A DNA stretch of 64,000 nucleotides from Corynebacterium efficiens YS-314. Its GTDB lineage: Bacteria; Actinomycetota; Actinomycetes; Mycobacteriales; Mycobacteriaceae. The notes under the pieces were generated by a model. It ran no database searches. It saw nothing but the letters and a program-made list of their open reading frames with translations, and had not been told where the DNA came from. This document shows, piece after piece, positions 17,530 through 26,178 of this stretch (positions are counted from its first letter, which is position 1; every line of letters begins with the position of its first letter). Location of the stretch: contig NC_004369.1 of NCBI RefSeq assembly GCF_000011305.1, positions 558,001 through 622,000 on the forward strand, read 5' to 3'. Made by a program: the position numbers and the translations under genes.

Positions 17530-17645
17530 CTGACGGTGTGTGATCCCCTCCACCGTCCGTATCTCATCTCCCCACCGTGCATGGCGAATACGCAAGCACG
17601 TCCGTAGCTGTCCCGCAACCGTAGAGCCGGATCCCTGCACGGTGC
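17530..17645 (+). promoter_or_regulatory. Variant cobalamin riboswitch upstream of the DUF4430 gene
   Basis: The core GCTGTCCCGCAACCGTAG and the B12-box-like AGCCGGATCCCTGCAC match the conserved parts of cobalamin riboswitches. They are enclosed by a perfect closing stem, CACCGTGCA (17573) / TGCACGGTG (17636). A second hairpin, GACGGTG / CACCGTC, lies upstream. The usual GGGAA...GGTG segment is shortened to GGCGAATACG, so this is a variant form. The element ends about 15 nt before the start codon, suggesting control of translation. Confidence 0.65.
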
Positions 17646-17660: not shown

Positions 17661-18272
17661 ATGACCTTGAACACCACCACCCGTCGCATGGCCACCACCC
17701 TGGTTGCCGCCACCGCCACCACCCTCGCTCTCCTGCCGGCTGCACAGGCCGCTGAGTTCACCACCGCCCGTGACTGCGTCGACGCCGACAATGTCTGGGT
17801 CTACGTCGAATACGGTGAGGATTCTGACAAGGAGCCCACCGGCGCCTGCGCCACCGAGTTCAGCAACGGCTTCGAGGCCCTGGAGTCTGCAGGCTTCGAG
17901 TTCACCTACTCCGAGAGCGACTTCGGCCGCTTCCTCACCGGCATCGACGGTGTCGCACCGACCTGGACCCCGGAGAACCCGGTCTTCTGGAGCTACTGGA
18001 ACGGCACCGTGGCCGAGGACTACACCGTGGCCTACGAGTCCTATCAGGTCGGCGCGTCCATCTCCACCCCGGAGGCCGGCAGCGTCGAGGCATGGTCCGT
18101 CAGCGACGGTTCCGTCGCCCCGGCGCTGGCGCAGCTGCCCGAGCCGGTTGAGGCATCCTCCTCCGTGGGCTCCTCCCAGGGCGGTATCCTCGGCGGCCTG
18201 CTGGGCATGCTCGGTGGTTTCTTCGCCGCCCTGCAGTCCGGACTGCTGTCCATCCTGGGGCTGTCCTCCTAG
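17661..18272 (+). CDS. Secreted, anchored DUF4430 protein, transcobalamin beta-domain-like
   Basis: 203 residues. A Tat/Sec-like signal peptide has a cleavage site AQAA-E near residue 31. Residues 35-150 form a domain with NGFEALESAGFEFTYSESDF and FWSYWNGTVAEDYTV, then GSVEAWSVSDG. This matches DUF4430-type domains, which correspond to the C-terminal beta domain of animal intrinsic factor and transcobalamin. A Ser-rich linker leads to a hydrophobic, glycine-rich C terminus (GGILGGLLGMLGGFFAALQS) that probably sits in the membrane. A cobalamin-type riboswitch lies directly upstream. I infer surface capture of a corrinoid. Confidence 0.72.
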   Translation: MTLNTTTRRMATTLVAATATTLALLPAAQAAEFTTARDCVDADNVWVYVEYGEDSDKEPTGACATEFSNGFEALESAGFEFTYSESDFGRFLTGIDGVAPTWTPENPVFWSYWNGTVAEDYTVAYESYQVGASISTPEAGSVEAWSVSDGSVAPALAQLPEPVEASSSVGSSQGGILGGLLGMLGGFFAALQSGLLSILGLSS

Positions 18273-18321: not shown

Positions 18322-19665
18322 ATGACTCCCACAGGACACGACCACCGGCAGACCGTGACGTTCTACATCCTCGGCGGCGCGGGAGATCTCGTGCGTCGTC
18401 TGCTCATCCCCGGTATGGCGGGGTACCTCCGGGAGTATGAGGGCACCCGGATCAACATCGTCGCCACGGGGCGTTCGGAGATCGACGACTACCCGCAGCT
18501 GGTGCGCGATTCCCTCGCCGCAGCCGGCACAGACATCGATGACCGGGTGGTCGACAGCCTGGCCGGGCATGCCTCTTTCCTGGCGTCGGATGCCACTGAT
18601 CCGGCCGAGCTGCAGGAGCTGCTCGATTCCCGGGAACCCGGTGACCGCCCGGTGCTCTACTTCGCGCTCTCGCCTTCCGTGACCGCGCAGGCCGTCGATG
18701 CCCTGGCGGGGGTCACCCTGCCCGAGGGCATCGTGCTTGCCCTGGAAAAACCCTTCGGCGAGGACGCGGACACCGCCCGCGAGCTCAACGAGAAATTGTG
18801 GAAAATCACCGATGAGGAGCACATCTTCCGCGTCGACCACTTCAACTGCGAGACCGCCCTGTCGAACCTGGTCGGACTGATGGGCGCGAATGCGATCCTC
18901 TCCGCCGGGTGGAATAACAGGGCAGTCGAGAGCATTGAGATCGTCTATGACGAATCCCTCGGCCTGGAGGGACGCGCCGAGTTCTACGACAGCAATGGGG
19001 CTGTGCGCGACATGCTCCAATCCCACCTGCTGCAGGTCATGGCACACGCCCTGGCTGCCGACACCGATGACACGGTCACCGACATTCTCGCCGCCACGGA
19101 CATCGATCCGGGTTCCGTCCGTCGCGCCCGGTACACCGCAGGCGAGGCGGGTGGCGAACAGCTGCCGGACTACGCACAGGAGGAGGGCGTGGATCCGGAG
19201 CGGGGGACCGAGACGCTCTTCCAGCTCACCGCGCACGTGGACACCGACCGCTGGCGTGGCGTGCCCATCACCCTGCGTTCCGGCAAGGCACTGGGGAAAC
19301 CGCGCAGGGAGATCGCCATCTCCTACCGGCGCGAGGGCTACCCCGAGGAGGTCGAGCTGCAGCCGGGCAGCCGTCTGGTCTTCCCCTTCACCGATGAGGT
19401 GGTGCTCGAGGCGAATGTCTCCGACCATGGTTACAGCCACAACCTGCAGCGCGTTGAACTGCGCACCGAACTGGTGCCCTCGAAGCTGTCGGCCTACGGC
19501 CGGGTGGTGCGTGCCATCCTCGACATGAGCGACACCGCCGAGGTGCCCGCCGACGCCCCGGCCCGGGCCTGGGAGATCGTGGAGCCCGTGCTCACCGCGT
19601 TCGCCAACGACGAGGTCCCGCTGGAGGAGTACCCGGCGGGGTCAGCGGGACCTGCGGGCTGGTAG
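18322..19665 (+). CDS. Divergent glucose-6-phosphate dehydrogenase-like protein
   Basis: 447 residues with G6PDH architecture. The nucleotide-binding motif is altered (ILGGAGDLVRRLLIPGM), and EKPFG is retained. The substrate motif RIDHYLGKE is changed to RVDHFNCET (170-178), losing the conserved Gly-Lys. The downstream RDMLQSHLLQ retains the histidine expected to be catalytic. It is unlikely to be the main Zwf and may act on another phosphorylated or free sugar, or be non-catalytic. It follows the DUF4430 gene by 49 nt on the same strand and could share its riboswitch-controlled transcript. Confidence 0.7.
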   Translation: MTPTGHDHRQTVTFYILGGAGDLVRRLLIPGMAGYLREYEGTRINIVATGRSEIDDYPQLVRDSLAAAGTDIDDRVVDSLAGHASFLASDATDPAELQELLDSREPGDRPVLYFALSPSVTAQAVDALAGVTLPEGIVLALEKPFGEDADTARELNEKLWKITDEEHIFRVDHFNCETALSNLVGLMGANAILSAGWNNRAVESIEIVYDESLGLEGRAEFYDSNGAVRDMLQSHLLQVMAHALAADTDDTVTDILAATDIDPGSVRRARYTAGEAGGEQLPDYAQEEGVDPERGTETLFQLTAHVDTDRWRGVPITLRSGKALGKPRREIAISYRREGYPEEVELQPGSRLVFPFTDEVVLEANVSDHGYSHNLQRVELRTELVPSKLSAYGRVVRAILDMSDTAEVPADAPARAWEIVEPVLTAFANDEVPLEEYPAGSAGPAGW

Positions 19666-19689: not shown

Positions 19690-20475
19690 TCAGCTGAAGC
19701 TGCGCTCCACACCGAACGCGGCGCGGCGGCTGGCGCGTCGTAAAGCACCCAGCACTGGTTTCGTGGTGAGCAACAGCAGCACGGAGGTGAACAGCGCGCG
19801 CCCCAGGTCCCACCCCAGGGACGTGGTGAGGGAGAACAACACGAAGGTGTGGAGGTTCTCCAGCACCGGAGCGCCCGGGGTGAAGGACAACTCGGTGGAT
19901 ACACCGATGGCATACGGCCAGAAGCTCATGTTCATCAGGAACCCGTAGCCGAGTGCGGCGACCACGGCGTAAACCACGATGATGAGTGTCTCCAACCGCC
20001 CGCGCACGGGCGGCAGCAGGCCCGCGCCGAAGGCGACCCAGGCCGCAGCCAGCATCTGATACGGCAGCCAGGGGCCGATGCCGGCGGTGAGCAACGCCGA
20101 GGCGAACAATCCGGTGTTGCCCAGGATGAACCCGAACCCGGGACCGAAGGCGCGACCGCCCAGGATGAGGATGAAGAACACCGCCTCGAAACCGGCGGTG
20201 CCCGCACCGAAGGGACGCACGATCGCGACCATGGCGCTGAGCACACCCAGCATGGCCACGGCCTTGACGTCGAAACCATCCTCGCTGATCTCGGCGACCA
20301 CCGCAGCTAACACCAGTGGGATCACCAACGCCAGGTAGAGCGGGGCCTGTGCATCATCGGACAGGAACGACTCCGGATTCACAATCAGCGGCCAAAAGAA
20401 GATGATGATGCTCAACACCGCCAGCACACCCAGCGTGAGATAGGTCTTCGGTTTGAGGGCGATAGCGCTGATCAC
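19690..20475 (-). CDS. ECF transporter S component, probably for cobalamin
   Basis: 261 residues with about six hydrophobic segments (LTLGVLAVLSIIIFFWPLIV, then LYLALVIPLVLAAVVAEISE). The middle GGRAFGPGFGFILGNTGLFA loop is typical of S components of cobalt/vitamin ECF importers. The S unit binds the substrate and topples into the T-A-A' module. It starts at GTG overlapping the TGA of the ATPase gene, so it is translationally coupled. Substrate assignment to cobalamin rests on the riboswitch and the two carrier-like proteins in the same operon. It resembles the predicted CbrT-CbrU-CbrV arrangement. Confidence 0.75.
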   Translation of the reverse strand: MISAIALKPKTYLTLGVLAVLSIIIFFWPLIVNPESFLSDDAQAPLYLALVIPLVLAAVVAEISEDGFDVKAVAMLGVLSAMVAIVRPFGAGTAGFEAVFFILILGGRAFGPGFGFILGNTGLFASALLTAGIGPWLPYQMLAAAWVAFGAGLLPPVRGRLETLIIVVYAVVAALGYGFLMNMSFWPYAIGVSTELSFTPGAPVLENLHTFVLFSLTTSLGWDLGRALFTSVLLLLTTKPVLGALRRASRRAAFGVERSFS

Positions 20476-22250
20476 AGGGCACCGTCCCCAAGCGCGGCCT
20501 TCACCGCGGGCACGGTGAGCCAGTAGGACGGATCCTGGATACCGGCGGTGATCTTGGCCACCTGCGGGGCATAGGCGGGGGAGGCCGCGAGGATATCCAC
20601 GGCCGGGCCGTCGGCGACGATCTTCCCCGATGCCATGAACAGCACCCGGTCCGCGCACAGGGCGGCGAACTCCACATCGTGGGTGACCACCAGCACCGCG
20701 TGACCGGTCAGCGCCAACTCCTTGAAACTGTCCGACAGGGATTTCTTACCGGCGTAATCCAACCCGCGGGTCGGTTCGTCGAAGAACACCACCGGTGGTT
20801 GTGCCGCCAACTGGATAGACAGTGCCAGGGAGAGTTTCTGCCCCTCCGAGAGATCCCGGGGATGCAGCTCATCGGGGATGTTCGGGGCCAGGGTGTCCAG
20901 GATGGCGCGGGTAGTGCCGGGCGCCGCGGCGGCATCCTTGTCGGAACGGCGCAGCTCCAGGCCCACGGAGGATTCATAGAGGATATCGGTCGGTGTCTGC
21001 GGCACCATGGACACCACGCGGCGACGGTCAGCGGGTTTGAGCTGGTGGGGATCCGACCATGGCATATCCGGGGTGGCGCCACCGCGGTTCCTGCGGGTAT
21101 GTTTCCGGGCGGCGGCGTCATCATCATGGACCAGGACCGTGCCCTGGCTGCGTTTACCCGTGCCCTGCAGAGCCCACAGCAGGGAGGATTTCCCACACCC
21201 GTTACGGCCCATCAACACGGTGACCTCACCCTCATAGAGGGTCAGATCCACCCCGTCTACGGCACGGATCTCCGGGAAGTCCACCACGACATCCTCCGCC
21301 CGCAGCAGGGGGTTCGGCCGGGTGGTCTGCACCTTGGACACTACCAGCCCCCGCTGGAACAGGCGTCGGCGCATGGCATGGGAATGATTCCGGGCATCCC
21401 GGATGGACAACGGCAGCGGGGACCAGCCCGCCCAGCGGCCCAGTTCGATGACCGGGGGAGCCACATCCGCGGAGGTCATGATCTCCGCCGGGGTGCCGAG
21501 GGTGACCCGGCCATCCTGACCGACGTGGGCCACCCGGTCGACATACTGCAGCACGCGTTCAATGCGGTGCTCGGCCAGGACCACCGTCATGGCCAGGTCG
21601 TGGGCGAGTTTGGTCACCGTCGCCAGGACATCCTCCGCGCCGTTGGGGTCCAGGGCGCTGGTGGGTTCATCGAGCACCATCAGGGCCGGTCGGGTGGTCA
21701 GGACCGCACCGATGGCCACGCGCTGCTGTTCACCACCCGACAGCTCGGACAGCGGCACCCCACGCAGTTCGGCGATGCCGAGCAGGTCGAGGGTTTCCTC
21801 CACCCGTTTGCTCATCACAGCCGGGGGCAGACCCAGTTGCTCCATGCCGTAGGCCAGTTCCTCCTCGACGGTGTTGGTGACAAACGAGGCCGCCGGATCC
21901 TGACCGACCACACCCACCACATCGGAGAGCATGCGCGGCGGGAAGTCACGGGTGTCGCGCCCGACGACGCGGACATGACCGTCGAGACGCCCACCGGTGG
22001 CGTGCGGCATCGCGCCGGTCATGGCGTTGAGCAGGGTGGATTTCCCCGAGCCGGTACGCCCGAGAACCAGGAGGATCTCACCTTCGTGGAGGGTGAGATT
22101 GACATCCCGGATCTGGGGTTCCGCCAGGGTGCGTTCATCGGTGTAGTAGGAGGCGGAGACATCCTCCAGCTCCAGGACCGGGGCATCCGACCACGCCTCG
22201 CGTTTGACGGCGGTGCCGGTGGTTCCGGTGACGCGGTTGTGGTTACTCAT
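20472..22250 (-). CDS. ECF transporter ATPase, two fused ABC domains
   Basis: 592 residues with two complete ABC cassettes. The first Walker A is GRTGSGKST (about 64-72), with signature LSGGEQQRVAIG and Walker B ALMVLDEPTSALD. The second Walker A is GRNGCGKSS (about 347), with signature LSEGQKLSLALS and Walker B PVVFFDEPTRGLD. The fused A-A' form replaces the separate EcfA and EcfA' of many bacteria and powers import with the T and S components. The start overlaps the end of the EcfT gene by 8 nt; an upstream in-frame start lies within EcfT and was rejected. Confidence 0.9.
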   Translation of the reverse strand: MSNHNRVTGTTGTAVKREAWSDAPVLELEDVSASYYTDERTLAEPQIRDVNLTLHEGEILLVLGRTGSGKSTLLNAMTGAMPHATGGRLDGHVRVVGRDTRDFPPRMLSDVVGVVGQDPAASFVTNTVEEELAYGMEQLGLPPAVMSKRVEETLDLLGIAELRGVPLSELSGGEQQRVAIGAVLTTRPALMVLDEPTSALDPNGAEDVLATVTKLAHDLAMTVVLAEHRIERVLQYVDRVAHVGQDGRVTLGTPAEIMTSADVAPPVIELGRWAGWSPLPLSIRDARNHSHAMRRRLFQRGLVVSKVQTTRPNPLLRAEDVVVDFPEIRAVDGVDLTLYEGEVTVLMGRNGCGKSSLLWALQGTGKRSQGTVLVHDDDAAARKHTRRNRGGATPDMPWSDPHQLKPADRRRVVSMVPQTPTDILYESSVGLELRRSDKDAAAAPGTTRAILDTLAPNIPDELHPRDLSEGQKLSLALSIQLAAQPPVVFFDEPTRGLDYAGKKSLSDSFKELALTGHAVLVVTHDVEFAALCADRVLFMASGKIVADGPAVDILAASPAYAPQVAKITAGIQDPSYWLTVPAVKAALGDGAL

Positions 22251-23538
22251 GTAACGCCTCTTTCTTGGGGGCCGTGGCAGCAGCGGTGGCGACAACCGGG
22301 AAGCTCGCGGTCACCGCTGCCGGCTCGGGGTTCCTGCGGTGGCCCCGGCCTGCAGGTGTGCGCCGGGTGGGCCCGGCTGGTGTCGTGTCCGGGGTGGTGT
22401 CCGTTGTGGTGGCCACGCGTGGTGTCCGGCGCCGGGCGCGGAAGGAGTTGCGCGGCAACCGGGGGGTGAAGATACCGGGGGCGGTGGCGACCACCAGAGC
22501 GAGGATGACCAGGAGGGGTACCTGCGTGGGCATGTGCAGCGGGATCCAGGTGGTCACCATCGATGCTGGATTGAGGTTGTATTCCACCAGGGCGGCGGCG
22601 AGGGGAACCAGTCCGGACAGGGCGGTGATCCACTCCGCGCCCGCCCACGGCAGCTGGTCGTAGGTGGTGGAGGTTTTTCGTCGAGAAGCGATGAATAGGG
22701 AGATCACCAGGAACCCGACGCCCACGATGAGGATCGGCACCGCCACGAACATGGGGGCACCGGCATCCAGCACCACGAAGATGCCGATGGTGGCACCGAT
22801 GATGCCCAGGGCACCGAACGCGGACGTGATCCGCTGCTCAATGAGCGGGGTGTCGGCGCGACGGCCGTAACCACGGGCATCCAGAGAACTGGCCAGCGCG
22901 AGGGAGCGGTCCAGGGTGTCCTGGAAGACGGGCATGAGGATCCTGGCGAACCCACGGATGCCGCCGGTATCATCACCACGCAGCGTGCGGGCCCGGTGGA
23001 TGCGGTACGCCGATTCCGCCATCTGCGGGGCAATCGAGATACCGATGACGATGGCGGTGCCCAGATCACCCAGTGCGCCGGGTAGCGCCTTGACCAGCTT
23101 CTTCGGATCTGCCAGGGAGTTGGCGGCACCCACCGCGACGATCATGGTGCCCAGCACCAGTCCCTGGGTGGCGCTCATCAACAGCCCCTCCGCATAGACC
23201 GTGCCGAACACATTGATGCCCGCCGCCCACTCCGGCAGATCGAAGGAGGGGATGCTGAACAGTTCCTGCTGGCCGATCTTGGCACCGACGAGGATGTGCA
23301 TGACCACGCGGTAGACCACGATCCACCCGCACAGGATGAAATAGATGGGGAAGGCACGTGCCCAGGGGGAGGCCCCCCGACGCTGTGCGACCACGAAACA
23401 CAGGACGACCAGTGCCATGGCCAGGACGTAGAGGTTGGTGGTCAGGCTGACGGTCCCGGCGATACCCAGGGCCCACACCCACCAGGCCATGGGGTGGATC
23501 AGACGCCTGGACAGGAGATAACGCTTGATTGTCTTCAC
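22243..23538 (-). CDS. ECF transporter T component
   Basis: 431 residues starting at GTG. Membrane segments begin at about residue 17 (MAWWVWALGIAGTVSLTTNL). The coupling helices are visible around ARILMPVFQDTLDRSLALAS and the Ala-Arg-Gly type motif in LDARGYGRRADTP. The family is usually about 250-350 residues. This one carries a long Thr/Pro/Ala/Arg-rich cytoplasmic tail from about residue 360 (TPRVATTTDTTPDTTPAGPT). It transmits ATPase movement to the S component. Confidence 0.87.
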   Translation of the reverse strand: MKTIKRYLLSRRLIHPMAWWVWALGIAGTVSLTTNLYVLAMALVVLCFVVAQRRGASPWARAFPIYFILCGWIVVYRVVMHILVGAKIGQQELFSIPSFDLPEWAAGINVFGTVYAEGLLMSATQGLVLGTMIVAVGAANSLADPKKLVKALPGALGDLGTAIVIGISIAPQMAESAYRIHRARTLRGDDTGGIRGFARILMPVFQDTLDRSLALASSLDARGYGRRADTPLIEQRITSAFGALGIIGATIGIFVVLDAGAPMFVAVPILIVGVGFLVISLFIASRRKTSTTYDQLPWAGAEWITALSGLVPLAAALVEYNLNPASMVTTWIPLHMPTQVPLLVILALVVATAPGIFTPRLPRNSFRARRRTPRVATTTDTTPDTTPAGPTRRTPAGRGHRRNPEPAAVTASFPVVATAAATAPKKEALHE

Positions 23539-23596
23539 TGTGTTTCACATTTTCCAACTATGTGGCCACCCTGGTGGGAGACCGCAACCGGGAGGG

Positions 23597-24670
23597 TCAC
23601 CCGTGGACTTCCCCACGACGCAGCACCCAGGTGGCGGCGGCCGCCCCACCGAACAGGGCGATGAACGCCAGGGCCAAGCCGATGGTCCAGGCGCGGGATA
23701 ACCCGCCGGTGTCCTGCGCACTCGTGGCATCGTACTGCGGGGTGATCACCTGCCCGTCGGCGCTGAGTTGGTTGGTGTCCTCCAGAGCCGGGGCGGTCAT
23801 CACGCGGGTGCTCTTCGGGTCGGGTTCCTCGGTGGTGGTCTCCGCAGACTCGCCTGTGCCGGTGGCTGCGGACACAGCGCCACCGGCGGAACCCGGTGCC
23901 TGTGCACTGCCACCGGGTGCGGCACCCGGTGCGGTACGTGTCTGCGCTGCCCGTGATGCTGCGGCGACCAGTTCGTCATATTCCTGCTTGGTGATCCGGT
24001 TGCCCTCGGCATCGGTGAAGACAAGCACCTCATCCGGATTGTCAGGATTCTGCTCGGGGGTGGGTTCACCGGACTGATTCGCTGTGGAGCCATCCTGCGG
24101 TGTCGGGGTGGCCTCGGGTGTCCAGGTGAATGCCGGGACGGTGGGCATGGGCGAGTCCCGGAGGCTGCCGGAACGTGTGCTGGTCTCGGTTGTGGTCGTG
24201 GACCTGCTCACCGGCACTGGTCCCGGTTCCACACCCGGACCCCACGTCCAGGCCTCGACTGTGCCGGGCTGCGGGGAACGCGCGTGGGCGCCGAAATCAC
24301 TGTAGGTCCAGGAGTTGGCTCCCAGTGGTGCGTGCCAATAGGTCCAGTAGGCACTGGCAGGGGATGCGGTCAGGCACTTGTCCACGCTGGCATCGGGGAA
24401 GCTGTTGATGCGACAGATGAATTCAGGGAATTTCTGGGTGCCCTCAACAGAGAAACCAGCGTTGATCAGGGCCTGATATCCGGTTCCCCCGGCCGCTGAA
24501 CAGGCGAGTGGGTAACCCTCCACCATCACGGTGACTTCATCATCGGAACACGGAGTGGTGGTGGCGGCCTGTGCCGTGGGTACCCACGGCGACATGGCCA
24601 GCGCAACCCAGGCCACCACCGTGACGATGACCATCCTGGTCAGCGTGGTTTTTCTGCTGAGGTTCAACAT
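23597..24670 (-). CDS. Secreted, anchored DUF4430 protein, transcobalamin beta-domain-like
   Basis: 357 residues. Signal peptide to about residue 36 (cleavage near TAQAA-T). Residues 38-150 form a DUF4430-like domain with GGTGYQALINAGFSVEGTQ and AYWTYWHAPLGANSWTYSDF, then PQPGTVEAWTWGPG. A long Pro/Thr/Ser/Gly-rich stalk (about 150-315) leads to a transmembrane anchor (WTIGLALAFIALFGGAAAAT) and a short basic tail. The domain matches the C-terminal beta domain of intrinsic factor and transcobalamin. It is 10 nt downstream of the alpha/alpha-barrel gene, so both halves of the animal carrier are encoded as neighbours. An AGGAGATAG site precedes the ATG. Confidence 0.78.
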   Translation of the reverse strand: MLNLSRKTTLTRMVIVTVVAWVALAMSPWVPTAQAATTTPCSDDEVTVMVEGYPLACSAAGGTGYQALINAGFSVEGTQKFPEFICRINSFPDASVDKCLTASPASAYWTYWHAPLGANSWTYSDFGAHARSPQPGTVEAWTWGPGVEPGPVPVSRSTTTTETSTRSGSLRDSPMPTVPAFTWTPEATPTPQDGSTANQSGEPTPEQNPDNPDEVLVFTDAEGNRITKQEYDELVAAASRAAQTRTAPGAAPGGSAQAPGSAGGAVSAATGTGESAETTTEEPDPKSTRVMTAPALEDTNQLSADGQVITPQYDATSAQDTGGLSRAWTIGLALAFIALFGGAAAATWVLRRGEVHG

Positions 24671-24680
24671 GATCTATCTC

Positions 24681-25886
24681 CTAGAACTGTACCGGGAGGA
24701 AGGCAGCGGTGCCGGTGAAACCGATAACCGCAGCGATGATCGCGGCGATGGCGCCGAGCACACCAAGGAAGATTCCTCCCTCGGAGGAACCACTGCTGGA
24801 GCCATCAGAATCAGACGGGGCCGGGTCTACCGGATCAGGATCGACCGGATCAGGATCAACCTGCTCCGGGTAGAGGGTCTCAGAGGATGCATAGCTACCA
24901 CCGACGAAACCGAGGGCCGCCTGGGCTGTGGCGCGACGGATCTGATCGGACACGGTGGTTACAGTGTCCACATCGCTGATCTTGTAGGCGAATCCACCAC
25001 GAAGCTCCTCCGGTGCGGAGTCGTCGAATCGCACGGCATCCAGGAAGGCGTGGTTGCGCTCGAAGGCATCCAGGTCGCCGGCATAGGCGAAGGCACCGGC
25101 TGCAAGGGCGGTGGAGTTGACGTTGATCCCGGCGAACCGGCTGTTGATGCCGCCTTCAGGCGTGGTGTTGTTGCGCAGGTACTGCAGGACGCTCCTGGTG
25201 GAGGTGGCTTCAGCACCACGGACCAGCGCGAGTGCCTGACCGGCCATACCCGTGGTGTCGGGATCCACGGAGGTGCAGGTCGGAGGTGTCGCCGGGAACA
25301 GTGGGACACCGCCATCCTCGCAGATCTGGCTCTCCAGGAAATCCGCTGCCTTGCTGGCAGCCTCGGTCTCGCCAGCGCGTGCCAGGGCGATGACAGCCCA
25401 CGCCTGGGAGAAGTTCTGTGCGTCGGAGGTGGGTTCGCCGTCGGTTTCGTTCATCAGGCGGCCGTTGTCCTGGATCGCATCGACCAGCTCTGCGATGTAG
25501 GTCTCATTGCGCTCACCGCGGGTGTTCTGCAGCGCGACGAACTTGGCCATGCGACCGGCATCCACCTCACCCAGGAAGTACACGAAGTCATCGGCGTTGT
25601 CGACCAGGGCCTCGTAGCTGCGATCCGCCTGGTCATGATGCATGTCCAGGGCATCGAGGGCGAAGATGAAATCGGCGGTCAGGCCGAGGTCAGCTCGGCC
25701 GCCGAACGGGCCGTCGACCAGCCCGTCGCCTCTTTCCGTGAGCTGCGCTGCCAGGAAGCTCGCGGTGCTCTCGAGCTCGGAATCGGTGGGTGGTGTTGCC
25801 GCAACAGCGGTGTGGGGGGTGATGAGTGCGATGCCAGTTGCCAGAGCCAGGGCTGTGGCAGCGGTGCGTGTCCCGAGAAGCGCCAT
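24681..25886 (-). CDS. Secreted alpha/alpha-barrel protein, intrinsic factor N-domain-like
   Basis: 401 residues. Signal peptide to about residue 29 (TAVAA-T). Residues 33-335 form repeated helical pairs of the prenyltransferase/squalene-cyclase type. FSQAWAVIALARAG, TTGMAGQALALVRG and NVNSTALAAGAFAYAG mark successive repeats; the second is close to the VDTxxMAxLAL pattern of animal intrinsic factor. A DPDPVDPDPVDP-Ser stalk (338-365) leads to a C-terminal membrane anchor (FLGVLGAIAAIIAAVIGFTG). It is the first gene after a strong cobalamin riboswitch. The frame is open upstream through the riboswitch; the ATG at 25886 with AGGACC was chosen. Confidence 0.78.
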   Translation of the reverse strand: MALLGTRTAATALALATGIALITPHTAVAATPPTDSELESTASFLAAQLTERGDGLVDGPFGGRADLGLTADFIFALDALDMHHDQADRSYEALVDNADDFVYFLGEVDAGRMAKFVALQNTRGERNETYIAELVDAIQDNGRLMNETDGEPTSDAQNFSQAWAVIALARAGETEAASKAADFLESQICEDGGVPLFPATPPTCTSVDPDTTGMAGQALALVRGAEATSTRSVLQYLRNNTTPEGGINSRFAGINVNSTALAAGAFAYAGDLDAFERNHAFLDAVRFDDSAPEELRGGFAYKISDVDTVTTVSDQIRRATAQAALGFVGGSYASSETLYPEQVDPDPVDPDPVDPAPSDSDGSSSGSSEGGIFLGVLGAIAAIIAAVIGFTGTAAFLPVQF

Positions 25887-25929
25887 GAAGGCAGGTCCTA
25901 TTCTTTCTGGGAAACGTTTCTGAGCATCC

Positions 25930-26102
25930 CGGAAGAAAGGCTGACATGCCTGACTACGGGCTTCAGAACCGTAGTCCTCGACGGTTGTGAGCCAACAGTT
26001 CTGCTCTGGGTGTTCCGACTCGGTGCACGATGCACCACACGGTTGCGGGTCAGTGCCGGATTCACACCGGACTTCCCCCAGAAACAAACAGTAGGTACCT
26101 CG
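25930..26102 (-). promoter_or_regulatory. Cobalamin riboswitch controlling the B12 uptake operon
   Basis: Read on the minus strand, this has the canonical order of a cobalamin riboswitch: GGTACC near the start, then GGGGGAAGTCCGGTG, AATCCGGCACTGACCCGC, AACCGTG, and a B12-box-like AAGCCCGTAGTCAGGCATG near the 3' end. It sits about 45 nt upstream of the ATG of the alpha/alpha-barrel gene. Its 3' part (GACATGCCT at 25943-25951 on the plus strand) is complementary to the segment next to the start codon (AGGCAGGTC at 25889). This suggests switching of ribosome access. Confidence 0.92.
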
Positions 26103-26178
26103 TACTTTAGAAATCATTCACACCAAGGTCAATGTGAGCTGTGAACGGCCTGCCCCCGTCGTGTGGCGCGGGTATGCG

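Follow-up and report, generated by a model that had tools for sequence, protein, structure and literature searches.

What are two secreted, membrane-anchored proteins doing in an operon for an energy-coupling factor (ECF) importer, a kind of transporter in which the S component is itself described as the binding protein (PMC5997447)? The question is raised by a minus-strand operon, 26102-19690, in a 64,000-nucleotide stretch of the Corynebacterium efficiens YS-314 genome (the window), which runs from an adenosylcobalamin (AdoCbl) riboswitch through genes for a barrel protein, a beta-grasp protein, the ECF T and A-A components and a putative S component. Our answer is that the operon is probably a capture-and-import system for cobalamin, or for corrinoids more widely, and that its surface pair is probably a split form of the clamp known from animal intrinsic factor (IF) and transcobalamin (TC). 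The outer receptor would be the unusual part of this ECF system. An earlier note on this DNA had proposed that a riboswitch leads an operon for a counterpart of the animal carriers in two subunits, coupled to an ECF importer, and the proposal is supported by the fold match of the beta domain and by natural one-chain fusions.

The operon and its two surface proteins

The leader that the earlier note took for a riboswitch matches RF01482 over the gathering cut-off, and it is the sole such match in the genome (3.2 Mb, three contigs). Behind it, five open reading frames follow in the order that had been claimed (barrel, the protein labeled DUF4430, T, A-A and S), separated by short gaps or overlapping (Table 1). 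The longest reading frame for the barrel starts at 26117 and runs through the riboswitch, so the ATG at 25886 is the likely start. Both surface proteins end in a hydrophobic segment preceded by a low-complexity stretch, at residues 366-401 of the barrel protein and 327-351 of the beta-grasp protein.

It is the beta-grasp protein that points to the animal carriers by fold. AlphaFold2, given a family alignment, modeled its domain with a predicted local distance difference test score (pLDDT) of 89.6 and a predicted template modeling score (pTM) of 0.83. When the model was compared with the PDB using Foldseek, ranks 1-17 were all transcobalamin, haptocorrin (HC) or intrinsic factor; VIA gave the same carriers Z scores of 8.2-9.4 over 89-91 residues, followed by a Ruminococcus gnavus protein (3u7z, Z 8.0) and then by other beta-grasp folds (Z <= 6.0). 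The likeness to the carriers' beta domain suggested in the note is borne out by these matches, and on the model the assignment to the transcobalamin type appears fairly specific. The DUF4430 label had to be dropped. PF14478 matches neither the window protein nor, of the beta family, any of 45 members at E <= 1, and a scan of the whole genome with it at E <= 10 found nothing; judging from the model, the resemblance to DUF4430 would be one of fold. The window protein has no Pfam match at E <= 1 and matches NF040672 (SCO2322_fam) weakly (14.8 bits against a cut-off of 85, E 0.027), while searches of the PDB returned nothing useful for the single sequence and only low-complexity noise for the profile. 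A mixed alignment led by a fused chain (L108, described below) misaligned the beta-only rows and hence was not folded.

The barrel protein was modeled with confidence (pLDDT 95.5, pTM 0.93, again from a family alignment). The animal carriers have an alpha/alpha6 barrel, and so, by this model and its matches to known barrels, does the window protein, in a fold common to many families. What ties it to the carriers is a profile comparison. hhalign aligned the barrel family with IF/HC/TC collinearly over 181 columns (P 4.6e-5, probability 68.6%), and a control comparison of barrel with beta family gave no match. In the alignment, barrel Asp210 falls on IF Asp153 and Asn255 on IF Asp204; all 47 members share Asp210, Asn255 and Gln322, and we take IF Asp153, Asp204 and Gln252 to be contacts for cobalamin. 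The stretch around Gln161, a residue kept in 46 of the 47, aligns with the part of IF corresponding to the TNYYQ motif of haptocorrin, for which hydrogen bonds to the corrin ring have been suggested (PMC4350170). Overall, the profiles provide what seems moderate evidence for kinship with IF/HC/TC. The window barrel also matches NF053823 (SCO2321_fam; 62.6 bits, E 3e-17, under the cut-off of 300), to which it appears homologous with its segments in another order.

The importer genes were claimed as T, A-A and S. The T component and the two ABC ATPase domains stand: PF00005 matches the A-A protein in two stretches (E 5.4e-48), and the best NCBIfam matches of that protein are the ECF-specific TIGR04520 (254.6 bits, cut-off 315) and TIGR04521, both under cut-off. 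For the S protein, no Pfam or NCBIfam model scores above cut-off (a folate S family stays below at E 0.0086), and the protein's family profile matched no solved structure in the PDB, so its assignment comes from context. It has hydrophobic segments and a constant neighborhood with T and A-A, and it is strongly conserved in actinomycetes, with a mean column identity of 61% across 29 rows.

The genome has use for the vitamin. It encodes two methylmalonyl-CoA mutases and MetH; a stop that hinted at a fault in MetH proved to be the normal end of the gene. CbiC, the one B12-synthesis family tested, has no match in the genome and was found in 7 of 14 control genomes, from which we judge that the organism probably cannot make B12.

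Table 1. Features of the operon and of the second beta-grasp locus, in window coordinates
Feature	Coordinates	Strand	Evidence
AdoCbl (cobalamin) riboswitch, operon leader	25956..26102	-	RF01482, 55.7 bits, gathering score 50, E 1.6e-7
Secreted membrane-anchored alpha/alpha6-barrel protein	24681..25886	-	AlphaFold2 model, fold matches, NF053823, C-terminal hydrophobic segment
Secreted membrane-anchored beta-grasp protein, predicted transcobalamin-type beta domain	23597..24670	-	AlphaFold2, Foldseek, VIA
ECF T component (CbiQ family)	22243..23538	-	PF02361, 27.8 bits, cut-off 25
ECF A-A component, two ABC ATPase domains in one chain; presumed start 22250	20472..22250	-	PF00005
Putative ECF S component; presumed GTG start 20475	19690..20475	-	Context and conservation with T and A-A
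Second secreted beta-grasp protein, paralogue of 23597-24670	17661..18272	+	Iterated profile of operon beta protein
Probably decayed cobalamin riboswitch before second beta-grasp gene	17574..17643	+	AdoCbl-II, 18 bits, cut-off 36.5, E 0.22

Fused and circularly permuted relatives

SCO2321_fam matches at E <= 0.001 occur in 142 of 296 genomes of the class and in 58 of 115 genera, the weak ones including generic toroids; 26 genomes reach the cut-off. Within the window's own genus the barrel protein is matched in 15 of 151 genomes, below 1e-20 only in G000, G044, G046, G090 and G010, and the remaining 10 match its C-terminal region only. We looked at 40 loci around barrel genes, hand-picked for diversity. 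All five genes are present in 34, barrel and beta only in four (L061, L066, L077, L084) and the barrel only in two (L074, and L085, which ends with its contig); in L087 the S gene is cut by the edge of the stretch. Being complete in 34 of 40 actinomycete loci, the five-gene set is beyond chance, and it is widespread in the group. Thirty-nine of these loci, all except L083, were scanned for riboswitches. A cobalamin riboswitch over the Rfam cut-off lies 5' of the barrel gene in 22, and of the 30 matches 24 sit 5' of barrel or beta genes, in regions that make up 6% of strand positions; the other six lie elsewhere in L068, L073 and L076.

A search with the S protein added 80 loci, the best 80 of a larger set. 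Relatives of the S protein turned up in metagenome-assembled genomes (MAGs) labeled Chloroflexi and Acidobacteria (L159, L167), which may reflect transfer or mis-binned contigs. Two loci, L078 and L139, carry identical S proteins, so the loci are not all distinct genomes and at least one is in both sets. Several loci (L068, L110, L126, L127, L129, L148, L149, L154 and L163) have two barrel genes, only one of them encoding a membrane segment; the products may be an anchored receptor and a soluble one.

We searched the window and the 120 loci for two barrel segments (X, Y) and two beta-domain segments (n, c), using profiles derived from the standard form throughout, and something was recognized in 107 of the 121. 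Separate X-Y and n-c proteins, the standard form, are found in 57 loci including the window. Twenty-two loci, Streptomyces included, have separate proteins in the permuted order, Y-X and c-n (for example L055, L062, L066, L075 and L079). Both domains share one chain in seven, and a single component was recognized in 21. None of the 79 separate pairs combines one standard and one permuted half.

In permuted proteins the n segment scores weakly by itself (12-34 bits), so the permutation was re-tested by comparing profiles with profiles. Standard and permuted forms matched in swapped order, with P values of 3.8e-26 for X-X, 1.7e-41 for Y-Y, 2.8e-14 for c-c and 6.2e-9 for n-n. We rejected the idea that similarity between repeats had faked the barrel permutation, since unlike segments gave only 9.6e-7 and 3e-8; the permutation is visible too in NCBI's own profile matches for G236 and G186. 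On these comparisons, the barrel and the beta domain are circularly permuted together in Streptomyces-type relatives. Counted on a tree of the S protein (quick method, 114 rows), the permuted label requires three changes if 14 unlabeled rows are set aside and eight if they are taken as non-permuted, from which it seems that the permutation switched on few occasions, and then in both genes, or that the gene pair was exchanged as a unit. Circular permutation has been described elsewhere in the beta-grasp fold, in the E1 UFD domain (PMC1949818).

The seven fused chains come in both orders. The barrel is first in L108 and L106, the beta domain in L100, L133, L138, L160 and L170; L160 and L170 had been labeled permuted, an artefact of two barrels per chain, and were counted as fused. 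L108:5538-7295 (+), from a Nocardioidaceae MAG, encodes an N-terminal leader, X-Y, five residues, n-c, a stalk and a hydrophobic segment, which is the domain order of the animal carriers. L106 has a hydrophobic stretch between its barrel and beta domains and looks like two genes run together.

A proposed two-chain clamp and its alternatives

How would such a system work? The riboswitch would tie expression of the operon to B12 supply, presumably through repression by the vitamin. The anchored barrel and the anchored beta-grasp protein would together correspond to an intrinsic factor/transcobalamin divided in two; each half would bind corrinoid weakly, and the ligand would glue them into a closed clamp, as the separated animal halves suggest. 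The clamp would concentrate B12 at the membrane and hand it to a dedicated S component, and T and A-A would power uptake with ATP, as ECF biology leads us to expect. Two chains may bind less tightly than one, allowing release to the transporter. A two-chain version should be workable, by analogy, because the halves of human TC co-elute through cobalamin. Expressed apart, they bind cobalamin more weakly and co-elute only in its presence; in that experiment the alpha half was held with CD320, and the same behavior is cited for intrinsic factor (PMC5599065).

Several lines of evidence speak for the clamp: cobalamin riboswitches concentrate before the barrel and beta genes; the beta domain best matches TC/HC/IF; the barrel is collinear with these carriers, with Asp210 and Asn255 on residues of IF; the two genes are adjacent, fused in some loci and permuted only together; and the genome has B12 enzymes and no CbiC match.

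Other results weigh against it. The special likeness of the barrel to animal intrinsic factor that the earlier note had claimed is not found in its fold, where prenyltransferases, terpene cyclases and glycosidases equal or beat TC. When the barrel model was compared with the PDB by Foldseek, prenyltransferase beta subunits and cyclases came first and TC appeared at rank 36 (E 3.5e-6); the 50 VIA matches listed are cyclases, epimerases, glycosidases and similar (Z 22-26); TC and IF are absent from those 50, which excludes nothing. Judged from the model, the fold assignment looks generic. A single-sequence search of the PDB with the barrel gave nothing useful, and the family profile found cyclases, prenyltransferases and complement/alpha-2-macroglobulin barrels, with no transcobalamin among the 60 of 88 matches listed. 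At E <= 1, SQHop_cyclase_C and Prenyltrans each match 37 of 47 barrel members, TED_complement 18 and PF01122 (Cobalamin_bind, Eukaryotic cobalamin-binding protein) only 13, with a best E of 0.0036. The window barrel is not one of the 13, having no Pfam match at that threshold, and for it the hidden Markov model check against Cobalamin_bind that the note had proposed was negative. For the beta model, the Foldseek E-values are modest (8.9e-4 to 0.11, only the first below 0.001) at template modeling scores of about 0.5, and hhalign of the beta family against IF/HC/TC is not significant (P 0.075). Seventeen of the 39 scanned loci have no over-cut-off riboswitch before the barrel gene. The S protein, with no family over cut-off and no structure match, is only a putative binder of B12. 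Finally, the coupled permutation is partly shared ancestry, and the loci are not independent evidence.

Might the surface proteins be independent or sequential receptors for different corrinoids, or for precursors such as cobinamide, that never form a clamp? The own anchor that had been claimed for each protein holds for both window proteins and not across the family. A hydrophobic tail follows the domains in 57 of the 98 barrels with a complete end, in 93 of 120 beta proteins and in all seven fusions; with 41 barrels lacking a membrane segment that most beta proteins have, the two need not sit side by side, and not far off in the window is a second beta protein that has no barrel of its own. 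Yet both domains are fused in seven loci, standard and permuted halves never mix among the separate pairs, and in the animal homologues both halves close on a single ligand (PMC5599065, PMC1796856). We consider independent receptors unlikely.

The cyclase-like matches invite another thought, that the barrel acts outside the cell as an enzyme, for example one of the terpene-cyclase or glycosidase class, or is a recruited scaffold, and that only the beta protein binds corrinoid. Its best profile and fold matches are indeed squalene-hopene cyclase, prenyltransferase and glycosidase barrels. Against this stand regulation by a riboswitch, a transcobalamin-type beta domain as constant partner, the collinear profile match with IF/HC/TC and, as read from one alignment, a change in the middle of the DXDD acid motif of the cyclases, and we find an enzyme or scaffold improbable. 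That the cargo of the ECF module is cobalt or some other compound related to B12, in place of cobalamin, the surface pair merely storing or shielding corrinoids, would fit a T component from CbiQ, a cobalt transport family, and an S component that was assigned from context and reaches no substrate-family cut-off, but we give it very little credence, given an S protein that matches no cobalt-type family, the missing CbiC match, which leaves little use for cobalt in de novo B12 synthesis, and a beta half that resembles corrinoid binders.

Returning to the clamp, there is a bolder version that we offer as a doubtful but possible extension. In it, the ligand-closed two-chain receptor feeds the ECF importer; the joint permutation of the Streptomyces type would move both membrane tethers round the clamp, turning it, when closed, relative to the S component; and a fusion in the order of L108 would be a model for the origin of the animal carrier.

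A second beta-grasp gene, precedents and meaning

The earlier note overlooked a second beta-grasp gene on the plus strand, at 17661-18272, which belongs to the B12 system. It has relatives in L176 and L177, and those in G044 and G090 are preceded by RF00174 riboswitches (34.8 and 30.0 bits, cut-off 31.5); the riboswitch before the window gene has probably decayed. The two riboswitch-bearing units converge, operon on the minus strand and second gene on the plus, with a glucose-6-phosphate-dehydrogenase-like gene between them (18322-19665, +; NF009492, 547.5 bits, cut-off 428). In L051 and L053 the two units are adjacent, about 60-100 bases apart. No further close copy was found in 20 relatives searched. 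The second protein could be an alternative or auxiliary partner for the barrel.

The general idea is not new. Burroughs et al. (2007) predicted that transcobalamin-like SLBB proteins, widespread in low-GC Gram-positive bacteria, scavenge B12; these often carry a fused alpha/alpha toroid, their genes as a rule accompany those for CbiO and CbiQ, sometimes with a second SLBB protein in the operon, and paired SLBB proteins were proposed to form surface complexes (PMC1796856). A secreted SLBB domain, an alpha/alpha toroid, CbiO/CbiQ-type transporter genes and predicted B12 scavenging are common to those systems and ours, which is therefore a variant of a kind already predicted for other bacteria. 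The proteins described there include the toroid in the same chain and come from low-GC Gram-positives, planctomycetes and some archaea, whereas the window system is actinomycete, two-chain, outside PF14478 and riboswitch-led, and has a coupled permuted form. None of the literature matches listed described the split actinomycete form, its riboswitch control, an actinomycete fusion in animal order or the coupled permutation. Nor was an experimental study of a bacterial two-chain carrier among the matches listed in that search, from which subscription titles are mostly absent, and the main text of PMC9600381 does not contain the words ECF, DUF, transcobalamin or btuF.

The nearest named relatives are SCO2321_fam and SCO2322_fam (NF053823 and NF040672, after Streptomyces coelicolor genes), whose barrel and beta proteins are homologous to ours and whose Streptomyces-type loci (L055, L056, L075, L079) hold the same five genes, but with both domains circularly permuted relative to the window. 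ECF-CbrT of Lactobacillus delbrueckii imports vitamin B12, the substrate also proposed here, by an ECF-type route; the window differs in having T, A-A and S in one operon together with two surface proteins (PMC5997447). The animal carriers TC, HC and IF share with the window pair an alpha/alpha6 barrel, a beta-grasp domain of matching fold and the internal segment order, and with L108 a single chain in which the two domains follow each other in the same order. Unlike them, the window system has two genes, two membrane anchors, an adjoining ECF importer and riboswitch control, and its barrel family scores highest with cyclase and prenyltransferase profiles.

If our interpretation is correct, ECF transporters could be supplied in a different manner, by an outer receptor made of two parts. 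A function would be suggested for genes of the SCO2321/SCO2322 type and also for an S-type membrane protein that is strongly conserved and, by sequence, has no relative of solved structure. The family would also supply versions of the intrinsic factor/transcobalamin design that are naturally split, fused or permuted and, because these exist, the assembly of human B12 carriers and their proposed bacterial origin could be tested in bacteria. On the evidence of this locus, some bacteria may capture B12 with a clamp of two parts, as the human carriers do.

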